35,706 nucleotides of DNA from an uncultured Paracoccaceae bacterium (GTDB lineage: Bacteria > Pseudomonadota > Alphaproteobacteria > Rhodobacterales > Rhodobacteraceae). A program made the position numbers and the translations under genes. Positions 1-7,442 of the stretch are shown here, in pieces. Where the stretch lies: the NCBI GenBank assembly GCA_947489705.1, contig CANLEQ010000030.1, positions 1 to 35,706 of the forward strand, written 5' to 3'. Numbering within the stretch: position 1 is the first letter of the stretch; every line of letters starts with the position of its first letter. The notes under the pieces are model-generated. The model did not search any database and was not told where the DNA came from. It was given only the letters and a program-made list of their open reading frames with translations.

Positions 1-133
1 CCGTTCCTCTCCCAGCCGGGAAATCGTAGCGGAACACTCCAGCTTCAAACGGTCCAGTTTGCGGGGATCAGATCACTTATGCGGCCGTCATTTTGCTCCT
101 GTGTTGCTCGATTTCGTTCCGGGAATGGGGCTC
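1..133. other. Region downstream of repB, expected repB-repC spacer
   Basis: This stretch follows the repB stop codon on the minus strand. In repABC replicons the spacer between repB and repC usually carries a small antisense RNA, transcribed against the operon, that limits repC expression and sets incompatibility. The position fits, but I could not find a convincing hairpin with a T-tract on the plus strand, nor a start of repC before the window ends. The antisense RNA is therefore inferred from family organisation and not seen. Confidence 0.3.
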
Positions 134-1114
134 TCAGGCCCTTGTTTTCCCCTCCTTGCGCCAACGATCGTGCAGATCTCTGGCGATGGTCTCGGCGTTC
201 TCCGCGAGCCATTCCGTGAACTCGGCGTCTACCGCGGTAGACAATCGCATTTCGACGGCTCTGGACGTTCTGCGAACTTGTCCGATAGCACACCCGTCAT
301 AAAGTGTCAGCGATACTGACCTATTTGGACCATCGTCCTTTGGTTTGGCTGCTGCCCGACCCGCCACAGTTTTGCGCGCGGATTTCAGCACCCATTCGAA
401 CCGTTGGTCGGAGGGCAAGTCGTGCGGAACACCAAAAGAACTTTCCACGAGATCGACCTTTTCAGTCTTTCCGATTTCGGCCAGTGCGGCCCATTGCCGT
501 CGGCCAACGCCGTGCGCGGCGCCGACACGTTCGATCACCTCGTCGGGAATGTCGGAGATGAGTGTGATATGGGCTGACACGGATTGCCGGCTCAAACCGA
601 GGGCATCGCGGATCACGCCCGCACCGTATCTAGCCGCTTTCATTTCACGAATGAATATCGCCTTCTCGATGAAAGAGGGATCGAGCCGGAGATTGTTCTC
701 CTGGCCTTGAGCGAGGATCGCTTCCTCGTCACTCAAGGTCCTGACGATTGCCTTGACGGGCCGCGCAAGTCGCTTGAGGGCCATGAGGCGGCGGCGACCA
801 TAGACAACCGCGTATCGGTCAGGTTGATCGGTCGGTCTGACGAGAATGGGAACCTGTTGCCCGTGGGTCCGGATGCTCTCCGCGAGATTCTCGATTCCGT
901 CATCCTCGCCGAACCTGTCGGTAAGGCCGCCGCCTTCGATCATCGACGGATCGATATCCAGGATCGAGTTGGACGAGAGATCGCGAAGGGACTCTCTCAG
1001 TCCCGTCACGGAAGCCGAGGAACTGCGCGTCCGCGGGGCAGGGGGCTCCGATTGCGGCTCGGCCTTGTCCGCATCCGTTGCGATTTCGACGCCGAAGATC
1101 TTGCGTGCCATCAT
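134..1114 (-). CDS. repB: RepB, ParB-like plasmid partition protein
   Basis: This is the centromere-binding partner of the RepA ATPase in repABC plasmid segregation, 326 residues, the normal length. The N-terminus carries the short RKIFG motif typical of RepB. A ParB nuclease-like/CTP-binding fold follows, with YGRRR (about residues 105-109) and GQENNLR (137-143), then a helix-turn-helix around 164-185 (GVIRDALGLSRQSVSAH). The start ATG overlaps the repA stop as ATGA, so the two are translationally coupled. A second ATG follows immediately and could also serve. No parS-like 16-bp palindrome of the form GTT-N4-GC-N4-AAC was found by eye in the flanks. The protein looks intact, unlike repA next to it. 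Confidence 0.9.
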   Translation of the reverse strand: MMARKIFGVEIATDADKAEPQSEPPAPRTRSSSASVTGLRESLRDLSSNSILDIDPSMIEGGGLTDRFGEDDGIENLAESIRTHGQQVPILVRPTDQPDRYAVVYGRRRLMALKRLARPVKAIVRTLSDEEAILAQGQENNLRLDPSFIEKAIFIREMKAARYGAGVIRDALGLSRQSVSAHITLISDIPDEVIERVGAAHGVGRRQWAALAEIGKTEKVDLVESSFGVPHDLPSDQRFEWVLKSARKTVAGRAAAKPKDDGPNRSVSLTLYDGCAIGQVRRTSRAVEMRLSTAVDAEFTEWLAENAETIARDLHDRWRKEGKTRA

Positions 1115-2178
1115 CTCCCCCAGGCTGCTTGAATGACGGTCTCGAGCTCGTCGGCCACGCCGTTCATGCTGGTGATCGCCCGCTCGAGCGTCTTGCGCAC
1201 GAGCTGGCTCGGATCGACCTCGTAGATTGTCTGCTGGGTCATGCCCGCATCGCTGATTGCCGTGGATTTCAGCATGGGCTGGGTCAGGACCTGATCGCCC
1301 AGGATCGTGCGGAGATATCCGGCCATCTGTGTCTGCGGACCGTCGGACGGTTCGTACTGCGTGATGAGGAACTTAACGAAATCCCAGCTCACCCGCTTGT
1401 CGATGGCTTCCTCGACGGTTTCAACGGTTTCCGCGGCGAGGTTCAGGAACTGCGACATCGAGGCGATATCGAGCATGCTCGGGACCACCGTCACGACCAG
1501 GCCCGTCGATGCGGCGAGCGCCGTGAGGGTCACGAAGCCGAGCTGCGGAGGACAGTCGATAATGATCAGATCGTAATCGTCCTCGACTTCCTCCAGCGCG
1601 CGGGTCAGACGCTCGGCAAAGATCGGCTGGACCCGCCGGCCGAGAGCGTTGGCCGTTTCGGTCTCGTATTCCGAAAGGATAAGCCCCGCGGGGGCGAGGT
1701 CGAGATTGTGGAAATAGGTCTTCCGAATTACCTCGGAGAGGGGGCGAGGGTCCTTGTACCGCAAGGCGTCGTAGATCGTGCCGGCCTCGCTGAACTCGAG
1801 TTCGGGGCGGAACCCGAAGAAGGTGGTGAGACTCGCTTGCGCGTCCATGTCGAGGACCGCCACCCTGTACCCTCGCAGGCTGTAGCGCATCGCGAGCGAA
1901 ATCGCGGACGACGTCTTGGCCGATCCGCCCTTAAAGTTGCACACGCTCAGCACTTGAAGGTGGTCACCCTTTCGCCGGCCCGGCCGGTAATGATCGGGGT
2001 TTTTGCCCGTCTGTGCCATGATCGACCTGATCTGGTCGATTTCCTCGGCAGTATAGTGACGATGGCCCCTGGTATCCGTAAATACGTCCGGAAACGACCC
2101 GTCCTTGTGGCGTGTCCGGAGGTTGGACGTGCTGATACGAAGGAGCTCGGCCACCTCCGTCGACGAGAATCGCCGCAA
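1111..2178 (-). CDS. repA: RepA, ParA-type partition ATPase, N-terminally truncated
   Basis: RepA drives repABC plasmid segregation and represses its own operon. Seen here are a MerR-like DNA-binding segment (RRFSSTEVAELL, residues 2-13), the deviant Walker A motif KGGSAKT (83-89), LDMDAQ (109-114) and the Walker B stretch DLIIIDCPP. Family members have about 400 residues; this one has about 355 from the best start. I chose TTG at 2178 because a GAGGAG Shine-Dalgarno lies nine bases upstream and no ATG or GTG exists before it in frame. The frame upstream still reads like RepA (PEERKSLRRF) for about ten residues and then runs into the end of tctA, whose stop is at 2223-2225. The first ~40-50 residues and the normal repABC promoter therefore appear to be lost. 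It may be cotranscribed with tctCBA. Confidence 0.85.
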   Translation of the reverse strand: MRRFSSTEVAELLRISTSNLRTRHKDGSFPDVFTDTRGHRHYTAEEIDQIRSIMAQTGKNPDHYRPGRRKGDHLQVLSVCNFKGGSAKTSSAISLAMRYSLRGYRVAVLDMDAQASLTTFFGFRPELEFSEAGTIYDALRYKDPRPLSEVIRKTYFHNLDLAPAGLILSEYETETANALGRRVQPIFAERLTRALEEVEDDYDLIIIDCPPQLGFVTLTALAASTGLVVTVVPSMLDIASMSQFLNLAAETVETVEEAIDKRVSWDFVKFLITQYEPSDGPQTQMAGYLRTILGDQVLTQPMLKSTAISDAGMTQQTIYEVDPSQLVRKTLERAITSMNGVADELETVIQAAWGR

Positions 2179-2222
2179 GGACTTGCGCTCCTCGGGGGAA
2201 CCGGAATCTCCTGGATTGTTGC

Positions 2223-3746
2223 TTACTTCGATGTCCGGTTTTCCGGAAACAGCTTCGCTCGGCGTTGATCCCGGATGGCAAGCCAGACCGAAAGCGCAAG
2301 GAAGAGCGCCGTGAACGTGTAGAGTACGACGGATATCCAGCTCGAGAGCAATATTCCCCAATCTCCGTCCGAGATCGACATGGCACGTCGCAGATTCCGC
2401 TCCATGTCGCCGCCGAGCAGAAGCCCGAGGACGAGCGGAACGAGGCTTACCCCCAGCTTGCGCAGGACATAGCCGAGCGCGCCGAACATGATCATCAGTT
2501 CCAGATCGAAAATCGAGTTCGAGATCGAGAAGACCCCCACGAAGCTCACGGCAGCGACGATCGGCATGAGCGCCCAGGTGGGCACCATCATCAGCCGGGT
2601 GAAAAGCCCGATCAGGGGCAGGTTCAGGACCAGAAGCGCGATATTGGCGAGATAGAGGGAGGCCACCAACCCCCAGACGAGCTCGGGTTGCTGCGCGAAA
2701 AGGAGCGGTCCGGGTTGCACGTTCAGCGACACGAGCATCGCGAGCATCACCGCCGTTGTGCCCGAGCCCGGCACACCCAGCGACAGCATGGGAATGAGCG
2801 CCCCGCCCGAAGCCGCGTTGTTGCCGGCCTCCGGCGCCGCGACGCCGCGCGGATCGCCCGTGCCGAACGTTCCTCCGCCGCCGCTGACCTGCTTTTCCAT
2901 CGCGTAGCTCATGACCGCTCCGAGCGACGCCCCCGCTCCGGGCAGCACGCCCGCGACGAAGCCGACCAAGGATCCGCGTGTCATTGCCCCCCGTGTGGAC
3001 CAGATCGCCCGGAAATCCGGAAGCCAGCTCTGCACCCTTATCGTCGCGGCGCGTTCCTTGCCGCGCTTTTCGAGCAGGACGAGTATCTCGGAGATCGCGA
3101 AAAGTCCCACCAGTGCCACGATCGGATCGACACCGTCGTAGATATGGTAGTTGCCGGCCGTGAAGCGCGGAATGCCGGTGATGGGATCGATGCCGATACA
3201 GGCGATCATCAGGCCGAGTGCCGCGGACAGCAACGTCTTGCGCGGATCGACCCCCGCGATGCCCCCGATCGTGGCGAAGGCGAGCACGTAGAGCGCGAAA
3301 TAGTCGGCAGGCCCGAAATAGATTGCCGCCCGCGCGAGAAGCGGGGCGAAGAGCGTGAGGCCGATCACCGACACCGTCGCCCCGACGAAGGACGCGACCC
3401 CGGAGATTGCCAGCGCATCGGCGGCGCGTCCCTGCTGGGCCATCGGAAATCCGTCGAGCGTCGTCATGATCGCCGGCTCGTCGCCGGGTATGTTGAGCAG
3501 GATCGAACTGATCCGCCCGCCATACATGCACCCGAAATAGACCGCGGAAAGCAGGATGAGCGACGACGTCGCGTCGAAGCCGAAAGCGAAGGTCAGCGGG
3601 ATCAGGATCGCGACGCCGTTCACCGGTCCAAGGCCCGGAAGCGCCCCGATCAAGGTGCCCGCGAAACATCCCAGAAGCAGAAGCGTCAGGTTCAAGGGGG
3701 TGAGGGCAACGGCGAAGCCGCCGGCCAGTGCGCTCAGGGTTTCCAC
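2223..3746 (-). CDS. tctA: TctA, large membrane subunit of a tripartite tricarboxylate transporter
   Basis: This is the roughly 12-helix membrane subunit of a TTT-family, cation-driven carboxylate importer, 507 residues, the usual family length. The two halves each carry the conserved glycine-proline loop: GALPGLGPVNG near residue 40 and GVLPGAGASLGAV near 265. It is the third gene of tctC-tctB-tctA; tctB ends ten bases upstream of its start. The 3' end is intact (…FPENRTSK, stop TAA) but is followed directly by the truncated repA frame. No terminator is visible between the two, so transcription could read through into repA-repB. Confidence 0.93.
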   Translation of the reverse strand: METLSALAGGFAVALTPLNLTLLLLGCFAGTLIGALPGLGPVNGVAILIPLTFAFGFDATSSLILLSAVYFGCMYGGRISSILLNIPGDEPAIMTTLDGFPMAQQGRAADALAISGVASFVGATVSVIGLTLFAPLLARAAIYFGPADYFALYVLAFATIGGIAGVDPRKTLLSAALGLMIACIGIDPITGIPRFTAGNYHIYDGVDPIVALVGLFAISEILVLLEKRGKERAATIRVQSWLPDFRAIWSTRGAMTRGSLVGFVAGVLPGAGASLGAVMSYAMEKQVSGGGGTFGTGDPRGVAAPEAGNNAASGGALIPMLSLGVPGSGTTAVMLAMLVSLNVQPGPLLFAQQPELVWGLVASLYLANIALLVLNLPLIGLFTRLMMVPTWALMPIVAAVSFVGVFSISNSIFDLELMIMFGALGYVLRKLGVSLVPLVLGLLLGGDMERNLRRAMSISDGDWGILLSSWISVVLYTFTALFLALSVWLAIRDQRRAKLFPENRTSK

Positions 3747-3756
3747 ATCGATCTCC

Positions 3757-4185
3757 TCAGAACCAAGTGCCCAGCACGTCGAGCGGCAGGCCCAACCCCT
3801 TGTCGAAGAGCGCCCAGAGACCCGGTGCGATCAAAGCGGCGATCGCGGCCGACTTCCAGGCCGGACCGTCGAGGATGATGCCCAGAAGCGCCAGCAGCAG
3901 GAAGGTCGCCAGCGGAAAGCCGAGGGGTCGCAGCAGCCAAGCGTAACCCAGCAACACGGCAAGCGACGCCCCTTGCCGCGCAAGCCGTTCGGGGCGGGGC
4001 CAGGCGACCTCCCCGCCGGGCCAGACCACGAGGGATGCCGACAGGATCATTGCCGGAATGCCGACGATGATCGGAAACACCGCGGGACCCAGGACGTCGC
4101 CGAACGGAGCGTCATAGGATGTGGCCCCGCTGACGAAGAGCGCCGCGATCACAAAGATCACGGCGCCAAGCAGTCTGGTGGTCAT
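3757..4185 (-). CDS. tctB: TctB, small membrane subunit of the TTT transporter
   Basis: This is a four-helix small membrane subunit that pairs with TctA, 142 residues, a normal length for this poorly conserved family. Hydrophobic segments are LLGAVIFVIAALFV near the start, FPIIVGIPAMILSASLVV, ASLAVLLGYAWLL and the C-terminal block. The ATG at 4185 overlaps the tctC stop as ATGA, which fixes the start. The identification rests on hydrophobicity, size and the position between tctC and tctA more than on any motif. Confidence 0.88.
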   Translation of the reverse strand: MTTRLLGAVIFVIAALFVSGATSYDAPFGDVLGPAVFPIIVGIPAMILSASLVVWPGGEVAWPRPERLARQGASLAVLLGYAWLLRPLGFPLATFLLLALLGIILDGPAWKSAAIAALIAPGLWALFDKGLGLPLDVLGTWF

Positions 4186-5156
4186 TCTATGATGCCGATT
4201 TCTCTCGAAATCTCGGCCATCGCCTCTTCCTGGTCCTGGACGTACTGGGTGAACTCGTCCCCTCCGCGCCAGATCGGCAGGAGACCGGATTCCTCGGCCG
4301 CCTCTTGCCACTCCTCGCTCTGATAGAGGGTTTCGAGCCTGTCGACCCATGCCTGGTAGGCCTCGTCGGAGACATCTCCGCCGGTATAGACGCCACGCCA
4401 GTTATAGCCGGTGACATCGACCCCCTGGCTCACGGCCGTCGGAATGTCGGGAAATGCCGGTACGGGCTCGTCGGACAGGACGGCGAGAACGCGAATGTCG
4501 CCCGATTCCACGAAGCCCGCGATTTCGCCGATATCGGTCGAGACGACGTCGACCTGATTGCCCATCATCTGCGTCACCGCATCGGTGCCTGCGTCGAACT
4601 GGACCCACCGGAGCGCCGAAAGGTCTTCGAGCCCCGCCTCGCGCGCAACGAGCAGAAGCCGGATGTGGTCCCAACCGCCCGCCCCGGACGACCCCGCGGT
4701 GACGATCGATCCCGGGTCGTTCGCCATGATCTCGGTCAGTTCTGCGAGATCGTCGATCTCGCTGTCGGCATTCACGGCGATGAGGCCGACATCGGCCCCG
4801 AGCATCGCGATGTAGCGCATCGCATCCAGCGGTGCGGGATACCGGCCCTGGGCGATCTGGGTGACGCCGACCGTCGATGTCGCGACGATGAGGTTCTCGT
4901 CCTCGGGGCGTTCGCCGTCGACCATCGCGTAGGTCACGGCCCCCACGCCGCCGGGCATGTTCGTCACCTGCATGTTGCCGTCGATGAGATCGAGATCGCT
5001 CAGGATCCGGGCGATCGTTCGGCATGTGAAGTCCCAGCCCCCTCCCGGGGCCGAAGGTGCGATGCATTCCGTCGTCTGGGCGCTGGCGGGGGCCAGCGAG
5101 GCAAGCGCGCTCAAAGCCGCGCCGGCCAGCAGGGCCGTTACCTTGCGAGTGTTCAT
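4182..5156 (-). CDS. tctC: TctC, periplasmic substrate-binding protein of the TTT transporter
   Basis: This secreted binding protein captures a carboxylate and delivers it to TctAB; it has 324 residues. It starts with a Sec signal peptide (charged MNTRK, hydrophobic core, cleavage after about ASAQ). The mature N-terminus has CIAPSAPGGGWDFTC, with cysteines 31 and 45 flanking the PGGG substrate loop, followed by MPGGVGAVTYA. This paired-cysteine PGGG arrangement resembles the citrate-type TctC of enterobacteria rather than the many TctC paralogues of unknown substrate. That points to a citrate-like tricarboxylate or hydroxy-dicarboxylate. The start is supported by GGGAGG six to seven bases upstream of the ATG. 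Confidence 0.93.
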   Translation of the reverse strand: MNTRKVTALLAGAALSALASLAPASAQTTECIAPSAPGGGWDFTCRTIARILSDLDLIDGNMQVTNMPGGVGAVTYAMVDGERPEDENLIVATSTVGVTQIAQGRYPAPLDAMRYIAMLGADVGLIAVNADSEIDDLAELTEIMANDPGSIVTAGSSGAGGWDHIRLLLVAREAGLEDLSALRWVQFDAGTDAVTQMMGNQVDVVSTDIGEIAGFVESGDIRVLAVLSDEPVPAFPDIPTAVSQGVDVTGYNWRGVYTGGDVSDEAYQAWVDRLETLYQSEEWQEAAEESGLLPIWRGGDEFTQYVQDQEEAMAEISREIGIIE

Positions 5157-5205
5157 GTGATCCTCCCTTTGATCGTGTTCATCACCACACAGGAGCGATC
5201 GTCCT

Positions 5206-5270
5206 TTATCAAGTAGGGAGTTCGCGTGATGGCGCATCTCTTGATAAGCGGTCGGTTTCGCTGCCACTAT
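5206..5270. promoter_or_regulatory. Divergent promoter region between tctC and the lyase gene
   Basis: An 8-bp inverted repeat, TTATCAAG at 5206-5213 and CTTGATAA at 5240-5247, lies between the divergent genes with centres 34 bp apart, about three helical turns. Each arm contains TTGATA reading outward, so each could also be a -35 box. On the plus strand TTGATA (5241-5246) is followed 18 bases later by CACTAT (5265-5270). On the minus strand the -10 match is poor. The repeat could be an operator shared by both operons, or simply two -35 elements. No regulator gene lies beside it. Confidence 0.4.
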
Positions 5271-5295
5271 GCAGCTCAGCAGGGGGAGAGAGACC

Positions 5296-6255
5296 ATGAC
5301 CGACAATCCGGGGCCAGCCGCGCGCGGAGGGCACGTAACGGTATGCGAGGTAGGACCGCGCGACGGGTTCCAGGCCGAGGAGACCTTCATTCCCACGGAC
5401 CGCAAGATCGCGATCGTGGATGGCCTCTTCGCGGCAGGCGTTCGCCACGTCCAGGTCACATCCTTCGTCAGTCCCCGCGCCGTTCCGCAACTTCGCGACG
5501 CGGAAGAGGTCCTCTCGGGGATAACGCGTCCGCCGGGCGCGGTCGTCGCGGCGCTCGTCGCGAACCAGAAAGGGGCGGAGCGGGCAGGGACGGCCGGGGT
5601 CGACATCGTCCACGGCGTTCTGTCGGCGTCCGAGACGCATAACCTCAAGAACGTGAACCGGCCCGTCGCGAAATCGCTCGAAGACATGAAAGGGATCGCA
5701 GCGACGCTTTCGGGCGCGGGTGTCGCGATCGAGGGGGGGATCGCCACGGCGTTCGGCTGCCCCTTCGAAGGCCCGGTGCCTGCCGAGAGGGTAGGGCGTA
5801 TCGCACGGGCCTATCAGGAGCTCGGTGCGGTGCGCGTCTCGCTCGGTGACACGACGGGCATGGCGACGCCCCTGACCGTCGCCGCCGCCATCCGTGCGAT
5901 CCGCGAGGCGGCGCCGGGTATGCCGATCGGGCTGCATTTCCACAATACCAGGGGCGTGGGGCTCGCCTGCGTGATGACCGGGCTTTCCATGGGCGTCACT
6001 CATTACGACGCCTCGATCGGCGGGCTCGGCGGATGTCCCTTCGCGGCCGGGGCGACCGGAAATATCTGCACCGAGGATCTCGTCTATCTGCTGGCCGAGA
6101 GCGGCTACGAGACCGGCATCGATCTCGACGCATTGATCGGCGTCGCCGAACGTACTCAGGAAACGATCGGCCGGCCATTGCCGGGCCAGGTGATGAAGGC
6201 CGGGCCGCGGCTCCGGCGCCACGATCCCGAACTCACCCGGCACGCGGCGGGATGA
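5296..6255 (+). CDS. Hydroxymethylglutaryl-CoA lyase family protein
   Basis: This TIM-barrel DRE-metallolyase is predicted to split a 3-hydroxy-3-methyl acyl-CoA (HMG-CoA to acetoacetate plus acetyl-CoA, or a close relative such as citramalyl-CoA). It has 319 residues. Family landmarks are all present: VGPRDGFQ (19-26, with the catalytic Arg-Asp pair), the metal-binding HFH (His214 and His216), the lyase signature GGLGGCPFAAGATGN with the flexible-loop Cys247, and the metal ligand Asn256. I chose ATG 5296 because GGGGAGAG lies just upstream; an in-frame ATG at 5269 has no such site. Its stop overlaps the ATG of the CoA-transferase. Pairing with a CoA-transferase and a citrate-type transporter suggests catabolism, not leucine degradation, since no leucine-pathway gene is nearby. 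Confidence 0.9.
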   Translation: MTDNPGPAARGGHVTVCEVGPRDGFQAEETFIPTDRKIAIVDGLFAAGVRHVQVTSFVSPRAVPQLRDAEEVLSGITRPPGAVVAALVANQKGAERAGTAGVDIVHGVLSASETHNLKNVNRPVAKSLEDMKGIAATLSGAGVAIEGGIATAFGCPFEGPVPAERVGRIARAYQELGAVRVSLGDTTGMATPLTVAAAIRAIREAAPGMPIGLHFHNTRGVGLACVMTGLSMGVTHYDASIGGLGGCPFAAGATGNICTEDLVYLLAESGYETGIDLDALIGVAERTQETIGRPLPGQVMKAGPRLRRHDPELTRHAAG

Positions 6256-7442
6256 GCCATCTTCCATTGTCGGGCGTGCGCGTCGTCGATCTCACGCGCA
6301 TCCTTTCCGGACCGTTCTGTTCGATGCTGCTCGGGGATCTCGGCGCCGATGTGGTGAAGATCGAACCTCCGGGCAAGGGCGATCCCGTGCGCGGCCAGGG
6401 GGAGATCGTCGAGGGCATGTCGTGGTACTTCGCGGGCTTCAACCGCAACAAGCGCTCTCTGGCGCTGAACCTGCGTGAGGAGGCAGGCCGCGAGGTTCTC
6501 GCCCGGCTCCTGTCGCGCGCCGATATCCTCACCGAGAACTTTCGCCCCGGCGTTCTGACCGAGATGGGGTTCACGCCCGAACGGCTGGCCGAGCTCAATC
6601 CGGATCTCATTGTGGTGAGCGTCAACGGCTATGGCTCCGACGGGCCCTATGCGAACCGCCCCGCCTTCGATTTCATCACCCAGGCGATGTCGGGATACAT
6701 GGCGACGAACGGGACGCCCGAGACGGGGCCGATCCGCACGGCGCCTCCGATCACGGACCTCGTCGCCGGGCTCTATGCCGCTCTCGGAGCCGTCGCCGCC
6801 CTCAGGGGGCGCGAGGCGGGCGGTCCCGCGCAATCGGTCGAAGCCTCCATGATGATGTCGATGATGTCCATGCTGGCCTATCTGTCGTCGAATGCGCTCG
6901 CGACCGGGCGGGACCCGCAACCCACCGGCAACGACCATCCGATCGCCGCGCCCTACGGGCTGTTCCGCGCCTCCGACGGTCATGTCGCGGTCGCGCCCTC
7001 GACCGAGGCGATCGTGCGCCGGTTCCTCGCGGCACTCGAGCTCGATCACCTGCTCGACGATCCGCGCTTCGATTGCAACGCGGCCAGGCTCCGGAATAGG
7101 GGGGATCTCAACCGTTTGATCGACGACGTCGTCTCGCGGGACACGCAAGCGGCCTGGATCGAGCGTCTGAACGCCGCGGGCGTCCCCTGCGGCCGGGTGC
7201 AGTCGCTGACCGAGGCCCTTTCCGACCCTCAAACGATCGCGCAGGAAATGGTCATTCGTGTCGAGCATCCCGGCCATGGGACCGTCGGAATGACGGGCTT
7301 TCCCATCAAGCTGTCGCGGACGCCGCTTTGCGCGCGCCATCCCGCGCCCGATCTCGGCGCCCATGGGGCGGATATCCTGCGCGAGGCCGGTCTCGACGGG
7401 GCGACAATCGCCGAGTTGCAGCGGACTGGCATCGTGGGATAG
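6252..7442 (+). CDS. Family III (CaiB/BaiF) CoA-transferase
   Basis: This protein transfers CoA between carboxylic acids via an aspartyl-CoA thioester. It has 396 residues, the normal length. The N-terminus is typical (LSGVRVVDLTRILSGP; GADVVKIEPP; NRNKRSL), and the catalytic aspartate is Asp169 in APPITDLVAG, the same position as in CaiB. It overlaps the upstream lyase gene by ATGA, so the two are a translationally coupled pair. The likely job is to load the imported acid with CoA, perhaps from succinyl-CoA or acetyl-CoA, for cleavage by the lyase. The actual acid is not determined by the sequence. Family III enzymes for glutarate, HMG, citramalate and formate are similar at this level. Confidence 0.9.
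   Translation: MSHLPLSGVRVVDLTRILSGPFCSMLLGDLGADVVKIEPPGKGDPVRGQGEIVEGMSWYFAGFNRNKRSLALNLREEAGREVLARLLSRADILTENFRPGVLTEMGFTPERLAELNPDLIVVSVNGYGSDGPYANRPAFDFITQAMSGYMATNGTPETGPIRTAPPITDLVAGLYAALGAVAALRGREAGGPAQSVEASMMMSMMSMLAYLSSNALATGRDPQPTGNDHPIAAPYGLFRASDGHVAVAPSTEAIVRRFLAALELDHLLDDPRFDCNAARLRNRGDLNRLIDDVVSRDTQAAWIERLNAAGVPCGRVQSLTEALSDPQTIAQEMVIRVEHPGHGTVGMTGFPIKLSRTPLCARHPAPDLGAHGADILREAGLDGATIAELQRTGIVG

Follow-up and report, generated by a model that had tools for sequence, protein, structure and literature searches.

A probable repA′-repB-parS remnant of a repABC operon behind the tctCBA operon of an uncultured Paracoccaceae bacterium

The window, i.e., the whole stretch of 35,706 bases analyzed in this work, corresponds to an entire contig (C30) of the 156-contig draft genome of an uncultured Paracoccaceae bacterium, and both of its ends consist of repeats. 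The minus strand carries, in this order, tctC-tctB-tctA-repA′-repB, with the following features:

1..75, minus strand: terminus of an IS3-like element, beginning with TGATCTGATCCCC; an OrfA-like frame reads leftwards out of the contig
76..133, minus strand: 58 bp from the IS terminus to the repB stop, with AGGAG (100) and ATG (91)
134..1114, minus strand: repB, an intact ParB-type partition gene of 326 aa (TIGR03454, 251.5 bits, cut-off 201.5)
227..242, no strand assigned: putative parS, a perfect palindrome GTCTACCGCGGTAGAC within repB, with likeness to the group sites GTCCACCGCGGTGGAC
1111..2178, minus strand: repA′, 5′-truncated, 355 aa from a TTG, with HTH and ATPase kept (TIGR03453, 491.8 bits)
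2196..2268, no strand assigned: recombination joint of up to 73 bp, similar to neither parent at the DNA level
2223..3746, minus strand: tctA, complete, 507 aa (PF01970)
3757..4194, minus strand: tctB (PF07331)
4182..5117, minus strand: tctC, first gene of the operon (PF03401)

The repA′ and repB genes are of the RepABC type and lie in order with an ATGA overlap (1114-1111), and their TIGR03453 and TIGR03454 matches were both above cut-off; the Pfam RepB profile PF07506, with 27.4 bits, missed its cut-off of 30. Neither a tRNA nor a known RNA was found near the joint. With regard to the counter-transcribed RNA of the repB-repC region, which is cut by the IS, no Rfam match was obtained in window 1-6500 at E-values up to 1. 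The right contig end (35610-35706) recurs over 97 bp, at 99% identity, as the beginning of contig C7; parts of this segment, a short dispersed repeat, matched several sister genomes at 78–90%, and plasmids gave no match. In sister genomes, matches to the genes of C30 were scattered over large contigs.

A sequence-only reading of this locus had described the repA frame as RepA-like from PEERKSLRRF onward and as running upstream into the 3′ end of tctA. This was confirmed, as RepA homology starts abruptly at 2196. The start falls at residue 9 of the query (window:1111-2220) in all 40 plasmid matches listed, and group matches in family genomes start at query base 1551, which is window position 2196. 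Read from the TTG, the 355-aa protein enters the TIGR03453 profile at position 31 of 387. RepA of intact relatives is longer by 37 aa before the homology start (e.g., 399 aa in Paracoccus yeei), and these approximately 37 extra N-terminal residues, with a helix like DIGAFADSLAESLDRQMK, were present in all 20 distinct relatives of the same group. The same N-terminus was observed in 19 out of 19 fetched order-wide RepA loci (18 match the strict motif and one carries a D-to-N change), which partly overlap the former 20. Similarly, the 66 other RepA places listed from 390 genomes of the order, with up to five candidates scored per genome, all had an open frame of 391 aa or more where the homologous stretch spans 361 aa, although an open frame alone is no proof of a native start.

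By analogy, the leading helix that is absent from the window RepA and present in the 20 relatives would be a dimerization helix. In Rhizobium RepA, according to an excerpt of PMC4492784, oligomerization depends on the first 78 residues, which comprise both helix and HTH; the deletion tested there is larger than the loss in the window RepA, which speaks against reading the locus as a remnant. The earlier proposal that RepA had lost its N-terminus was correct for the leading helix and the start codon, but not for the DNA-binding part, since a MerR-type HTH is retained at residues 18-70 of the 369-aa frame (PF13411, 23.3 bits against a cut-off of 21.6). The ATPase domain is also retained.

The tctA stop (TAA, 2225-2223) is located 45 bp before the TTG at 2178, which is preceded by GAGGAG (2193) with 9 nt between, as had already been pointed out. 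That this TTG is a newly selected start was rejected, because 11 of the 20 intact relatives carry the same Leu codon and no selection is needed to explain it; a small doubt is left by GAG GAG, which only one of the 20 shares. A TctA-RepA frameshift fusion was also dropped: the repA frame does extend through tctA as an 852-aa ORF, but visual inspection around the end of tctA revealed no sequence obeying the standard slippery-sequence rule.

Upstream of repA′, the control-region repeats of the relatives, TTCTGACG/CGTCAGAA, are missing. Relative to the homology start, TCTGACG of the relatives lies at −204 to −189 (19 of 20) and CGTCAGA mostly at −181 to −155 (20 of 20). Within the window, a heptamer copy was detected at 836, inside repB, and none occurs upstream of repA′ before 9062. 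Based on their inverted order, and on the RepA operators mapped upstream of Rhizobium repA (excerpted from PMC4492784), we infer that these repeats represent the RepA operator. The claim that repA has lost its own control region holds, with the 3′ end of tctA standing in its place. In the stretch from tctA to repA′, the minus strand showed neither a promoter-like nor a terminator-like match. On the same strand, two weak terminator-like matches are located within the tct operon (3784-3769 and 3344-3326); on both strands together, 4 such matches were found vs. 1.8 expected.

The 80% DNA match to the closest tctA, which is from the same genus, breaks off at 2269, and resemblance to RepA begins at 2196; the joint therefore lies within 2196-2268, a bracket that includes the position of about 2205-2225 originally suggested for it. 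In most near relatives, tctA protein alignments reach residue 498-503 (about 2253-2238), and would narrow this bracket. TctA comprises 507 aa vs. 501–505 aa in nine relatives, and, because its tail KLFPENRTSK has by eye no clear counterpart in relatives, the native tctA end may also have been cut. Among the candidates scored in the own genome (40 of 216 and 2 of 226 first-look candidates), no match across the joint was observed besides C30 itself, and no repeat was found at the joint at E-values up to 0.001, which makes a repeat-driven misassembly unlikely. Relatives sharing both the short RepA and the tctA junction, which would refute the sequence-only reading, were also looked for. However, tct genes were beside RepA in none of the 19 order-wide loci fetched, with flanks of up to 1.5 kb, and no listed match from 394 family genomes (up to two candidates scored per genome) spans the joint, except that of the own genome.

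In the sister genome G402, a tct cluster with 80% identity over 5.2 kb is present on a 2.95-Mb contig, which was taken as the chromosome. This cluster includes genes for HMG-CoA lyase and CoA transferase, named after the annotation of a plasmid record. Since no RepA match lies beside it in the 19 kb fetched, where other DNA follows tctA, the tctA-repA′ junction was probably derived in the lineage of the window. The right-hand neighbors of the G402 cluster matched C5 and C11 of the own genome, not C30.

On the other side of the locus, 58 bp separate the repB stop from the IS terminus that closes the contig. Copies of this 75–78-bp stretch occur at eight more contig places; seven of these lie no further than 2 bp from the end of a contig, and the eighth is located 303 bp into C12 and is followed by an OrfA-like frame. 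We presume an IS3 family membership from the look of this OrfA. In the last 400 bases of C12 (L057), the OrfA-like frame of the IS copy shows a tandem duplication around EDENSRLKKIVADL. In eight listed plasmid matches to window 1-133, similarity ends at base 75-89, and essentially covers the IS part. Next to the IS terminus (76-100), an ATG with AGGAG lies 42 bases after repB and is followed by TAA after four codons, possibly the cut start of the next gene.

No repC was found downstream of repB, where the IS terminus stands instead and the contig ends; in two group plasmids compared, the gap between repB and repC measures 240 bp, vs. 58 bp up to the IS in the window. The assembly, 100% complete by estimate and distributed over 156 contigs, contains five RepC (RP-C) genes, all away from C30. 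With a group RepC as query against the own assembly (E-values up to 1), the best match, whole or fragment, showed 36% identity, compared with 50–79% for RepC of four intact group loci. The search for a second repABC, proposed as a check from the sequence, revealed two other complete operons (C55 and C39), with other palindromes.

The other three of the five RepC genes, with open frames of 357–382 aa, are located on C29 (L050), C34 (L051) and C23 (L052), and no RepA or RepB was found in the stretches fetched around them. LuxR-type and LuxI-type genes (PF03472 and PF00765) are located near repC on C29 and C23, suggesting quorum-sensing-linked repC replicons. In C14:84000-91648 (L053), two convergent parA-parB-like pairs occupy 1140-5928, with TGTACCGCGGTACA palindromes at 3678, 3712 and 3774, within the gap that separates the pairs or close to it; the second parB-like protein had no Pfam match, no RP-C gene was found on the contig, and C14 ends in the same IS terminus as C30.

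The repB frame is open throughout. RepB identity was 41–52% in the listed matches from 394 family genomes, with up to five candidates scored per genome and 52% as the best value. In plasmids, all 2371 matching records were below 60%, and the best listed reached 48.2%. Within the group, the window RepB is 44–49% identical to the other members; between those, identity was 58–63% in the 25 pairs printed, which are the most distant ones by RepA.

The palindrome at 227-242, GTCTACCGCGGTAGAC, is the only exact copy in the genome; the degenerate pattern within one mismatch occurs at two other places, neither of them a perfect palindrome. It differs from the group site GTCCACCGCGGTGGAC by one change, made symmetrically in both halves. 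Two or three GTCCACCGCGGTGGAC sites were present in each of the six distinct group loci read through repC (L044, L045, L078, L079, L084 and L085), and one of those in L085 is inside repB. By base composition, the number of matches this close expected by chance in repAB is 4e-5, and we regard GTCTACCGCGGTAGAC as the putative parS-type palindrome of the operon. Neither this sequence nor the group's own sites fit the parS consensus GTTNNNNGCNNNNAAC quoted in an excerpt of PMC9040568. As a single reciprocal palindrome change separates compatibility groups 1 and 2 of the Rhodobacteraceae (excerpt of PMC5613091), a distinct specificity of the putative parS is plausible. Among about 85,000 species genomes, from which the own genome was possibly left out, the variant palindrome was found in 10 stretches, none with a Rhodobacterales title and none yielding both repA and repB by tblastn.

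RepA′ departs at 8 of the 86 columns that are invariant in 27 other RepAs (20 ingroup and 7 outgroup), including a change from DPQ to DAQ after the P-loop, whereas the 20 ingroup RepAs, tested one by one in the same way, showed 0–3 departures. RepB departs at 3 of 34 invariant columns, compared with none in the ingroup. The eight deviations in RepA′ may partly reflect its position as the deepest branch of the group. No stop or frameshift was found in repA′ or repB. The branch ratio of first-and-second to third codon positions was 0.124 for RepA and 0.240 for RepB, in each tree the fourth highest of the 15 branches with a third-position length above 0.2, and is thus high but not outside the range. 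Relative-rate counts revealed a mild, outgroup-dependent excess for RepA and no excess for RepB, in which the window was sometimes slower. The parS-like site was probably under selection until recently, since it is perfectly palindromic and both halves changed together. Departures at invariant columns on the one hand, and the lack of stops, the in-range ratios and the mild rate excess on the other, indicate that the lesion is either recent or still partly constrained.

The locus is probably a damaged repABC remnant, repA′-repB-parS, cut at both ends. A deletion or a similar illegitimate joining would have removed the repA control region, the start codon and the leading helix, and fused the remaining repA to the 3′ end of the tctCBA operon. 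Just after repB, the locus would have been ended by an IS3-like element or by a rearrangement mediated by one, with the loss of repC. RepA′ would at best be read from the tct transcript via a weak internal start, and could neither dimerize normally nor repress itself, while RepB may still bind its own site. The locus would not drive replication, and the DNA of C30 would therefore be kept by another replicon, plasmid or chromosome. The sequence-only reading had offered two options. A dead secondary repABC copy, which that reading placed in a putative cointegrate, fits better of the two, because the assembly lacks the cognate repC, an IS terminus follows repB, the control repeats of the group are missing and the genome contains two further complete repABC operons. 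The expression of partition genes from the tct promoter, with segregation tied to carboxylate supply, is only a physical consequence of the gene order, and nothing tested supports a selected function.

It is unlikely, though worth weighing, that repA′ and repB are an orphan but working partition module, co-transcribed with tctCBA, acting on the parS in repB and stabilizing the replicon of C30, whose segregation would then depend on the tct promoter. The missing control repeats, the two weak minus-strand terminator-like matches inside the tct operon and an arrangement found in no searched relative argue against it, as do the changes at 8 of 86 invariant RepA positions and the absence of a helix found in all examined group relatives, which belongs to the oligomerization stretch of Rhizobium RepA. 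These are set against the same-strand order with 45 bp from the tctA stop to the TTG, the lack of minus-strand promoter-like or terminator-like matches in the tctA-repA′ interval, the intact RepB frame and palindrome and the in-range codon-position ratio. In addition, GAGGAG before the TTG, shared by one of 20 relatives, might be an adapted ribosome site, and repAB evolves separately from repC in RepABC-9 plasmids, according to part of PMC9426580. A ParA devoid of the dimerization helix and of self-repression, driven by a substrate-responsive tripartite transporter operon and endowed with a new centromere specificity (GTCTACCGCGGTAGAC inside repB), for a replicon replicating by other means, is highly improbable.

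Alternatively, the IS might merely interrupt the contig, with repC beyond it and the module still replicating; a contig end at a multi-copy IS is a classic assembly break. We consider this very unlikely, given that no group-like RepC was found in the assembly at E-values up to 1, that the IS begins at 58 bp instead of after a 240-bp gap, and that the repA control region is missing regardless. An assembly error joining tctA to repA, as might occur in a draft of 156 contigs, is more improbable still in view of the absence of a repeat at the joint among the scored own-genome candidates (E-values up to 0.001).

As a damaged remnant, the locus shows a repABC module being dismantled, in which the replication gene and the control end of repA are gone, and repB and the centromere survive. 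A working orphan module, if this is one, would test whether partition by a type Ia ParA depends on the leading helix. The symmetric one-base change in parS, together with a RepB far from the group, provides a natural test pair for parS-RepB specificity.

Among the papers listed by literature searches on orphan repAB genes, none described a repA′-repB behind a tct operon in its title or abstract start. Composite RepABC plasmids, e.g., pMM259 of Martelella mediterranea, contain extra replication parts and mosaics within repABC, and the missing palindromes of Oceanicola sp. HL-35 were considered a possible sign of an inactivated module (both from excerpts of PMC5613091). On the evidence of that source, pMM259 combines complete RepABC modules with a solitary RepC, whereas in the window repC is lost, repA is beheaded and the palindrome is kept. 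Type Ia ParA proteins (PDB 3ez2 and 3ez9; structure matches obtained with an intact relative) share with the window the N-terminal HTH region and the deviant Walker ATPase, but their leading dimerization helix, a role taken for RepA from part of PMC4492784, is missing in the window. A further close system is that of the RepABC plasmids of the Paracoccus yeei unnamed4 and Celeribacter ethanolicus TSPH2 type (rep_cluster_231, PLSDB), within a RepA plasmid group that spans Paracoccus, Celeribacter, Phaeobacter and others. RepA is 80% identical over 361 aa (group range 77–80%), RepB is 44–52% identical, depending on the alignment, and the parS core ACCGCGGT is common to both. In contrast to the window, these plasmids harbor a full RepA (399 aa), its own control region and repC, and two GTCCACCGCGGTGGAC sites in place of the single symmetric variant.
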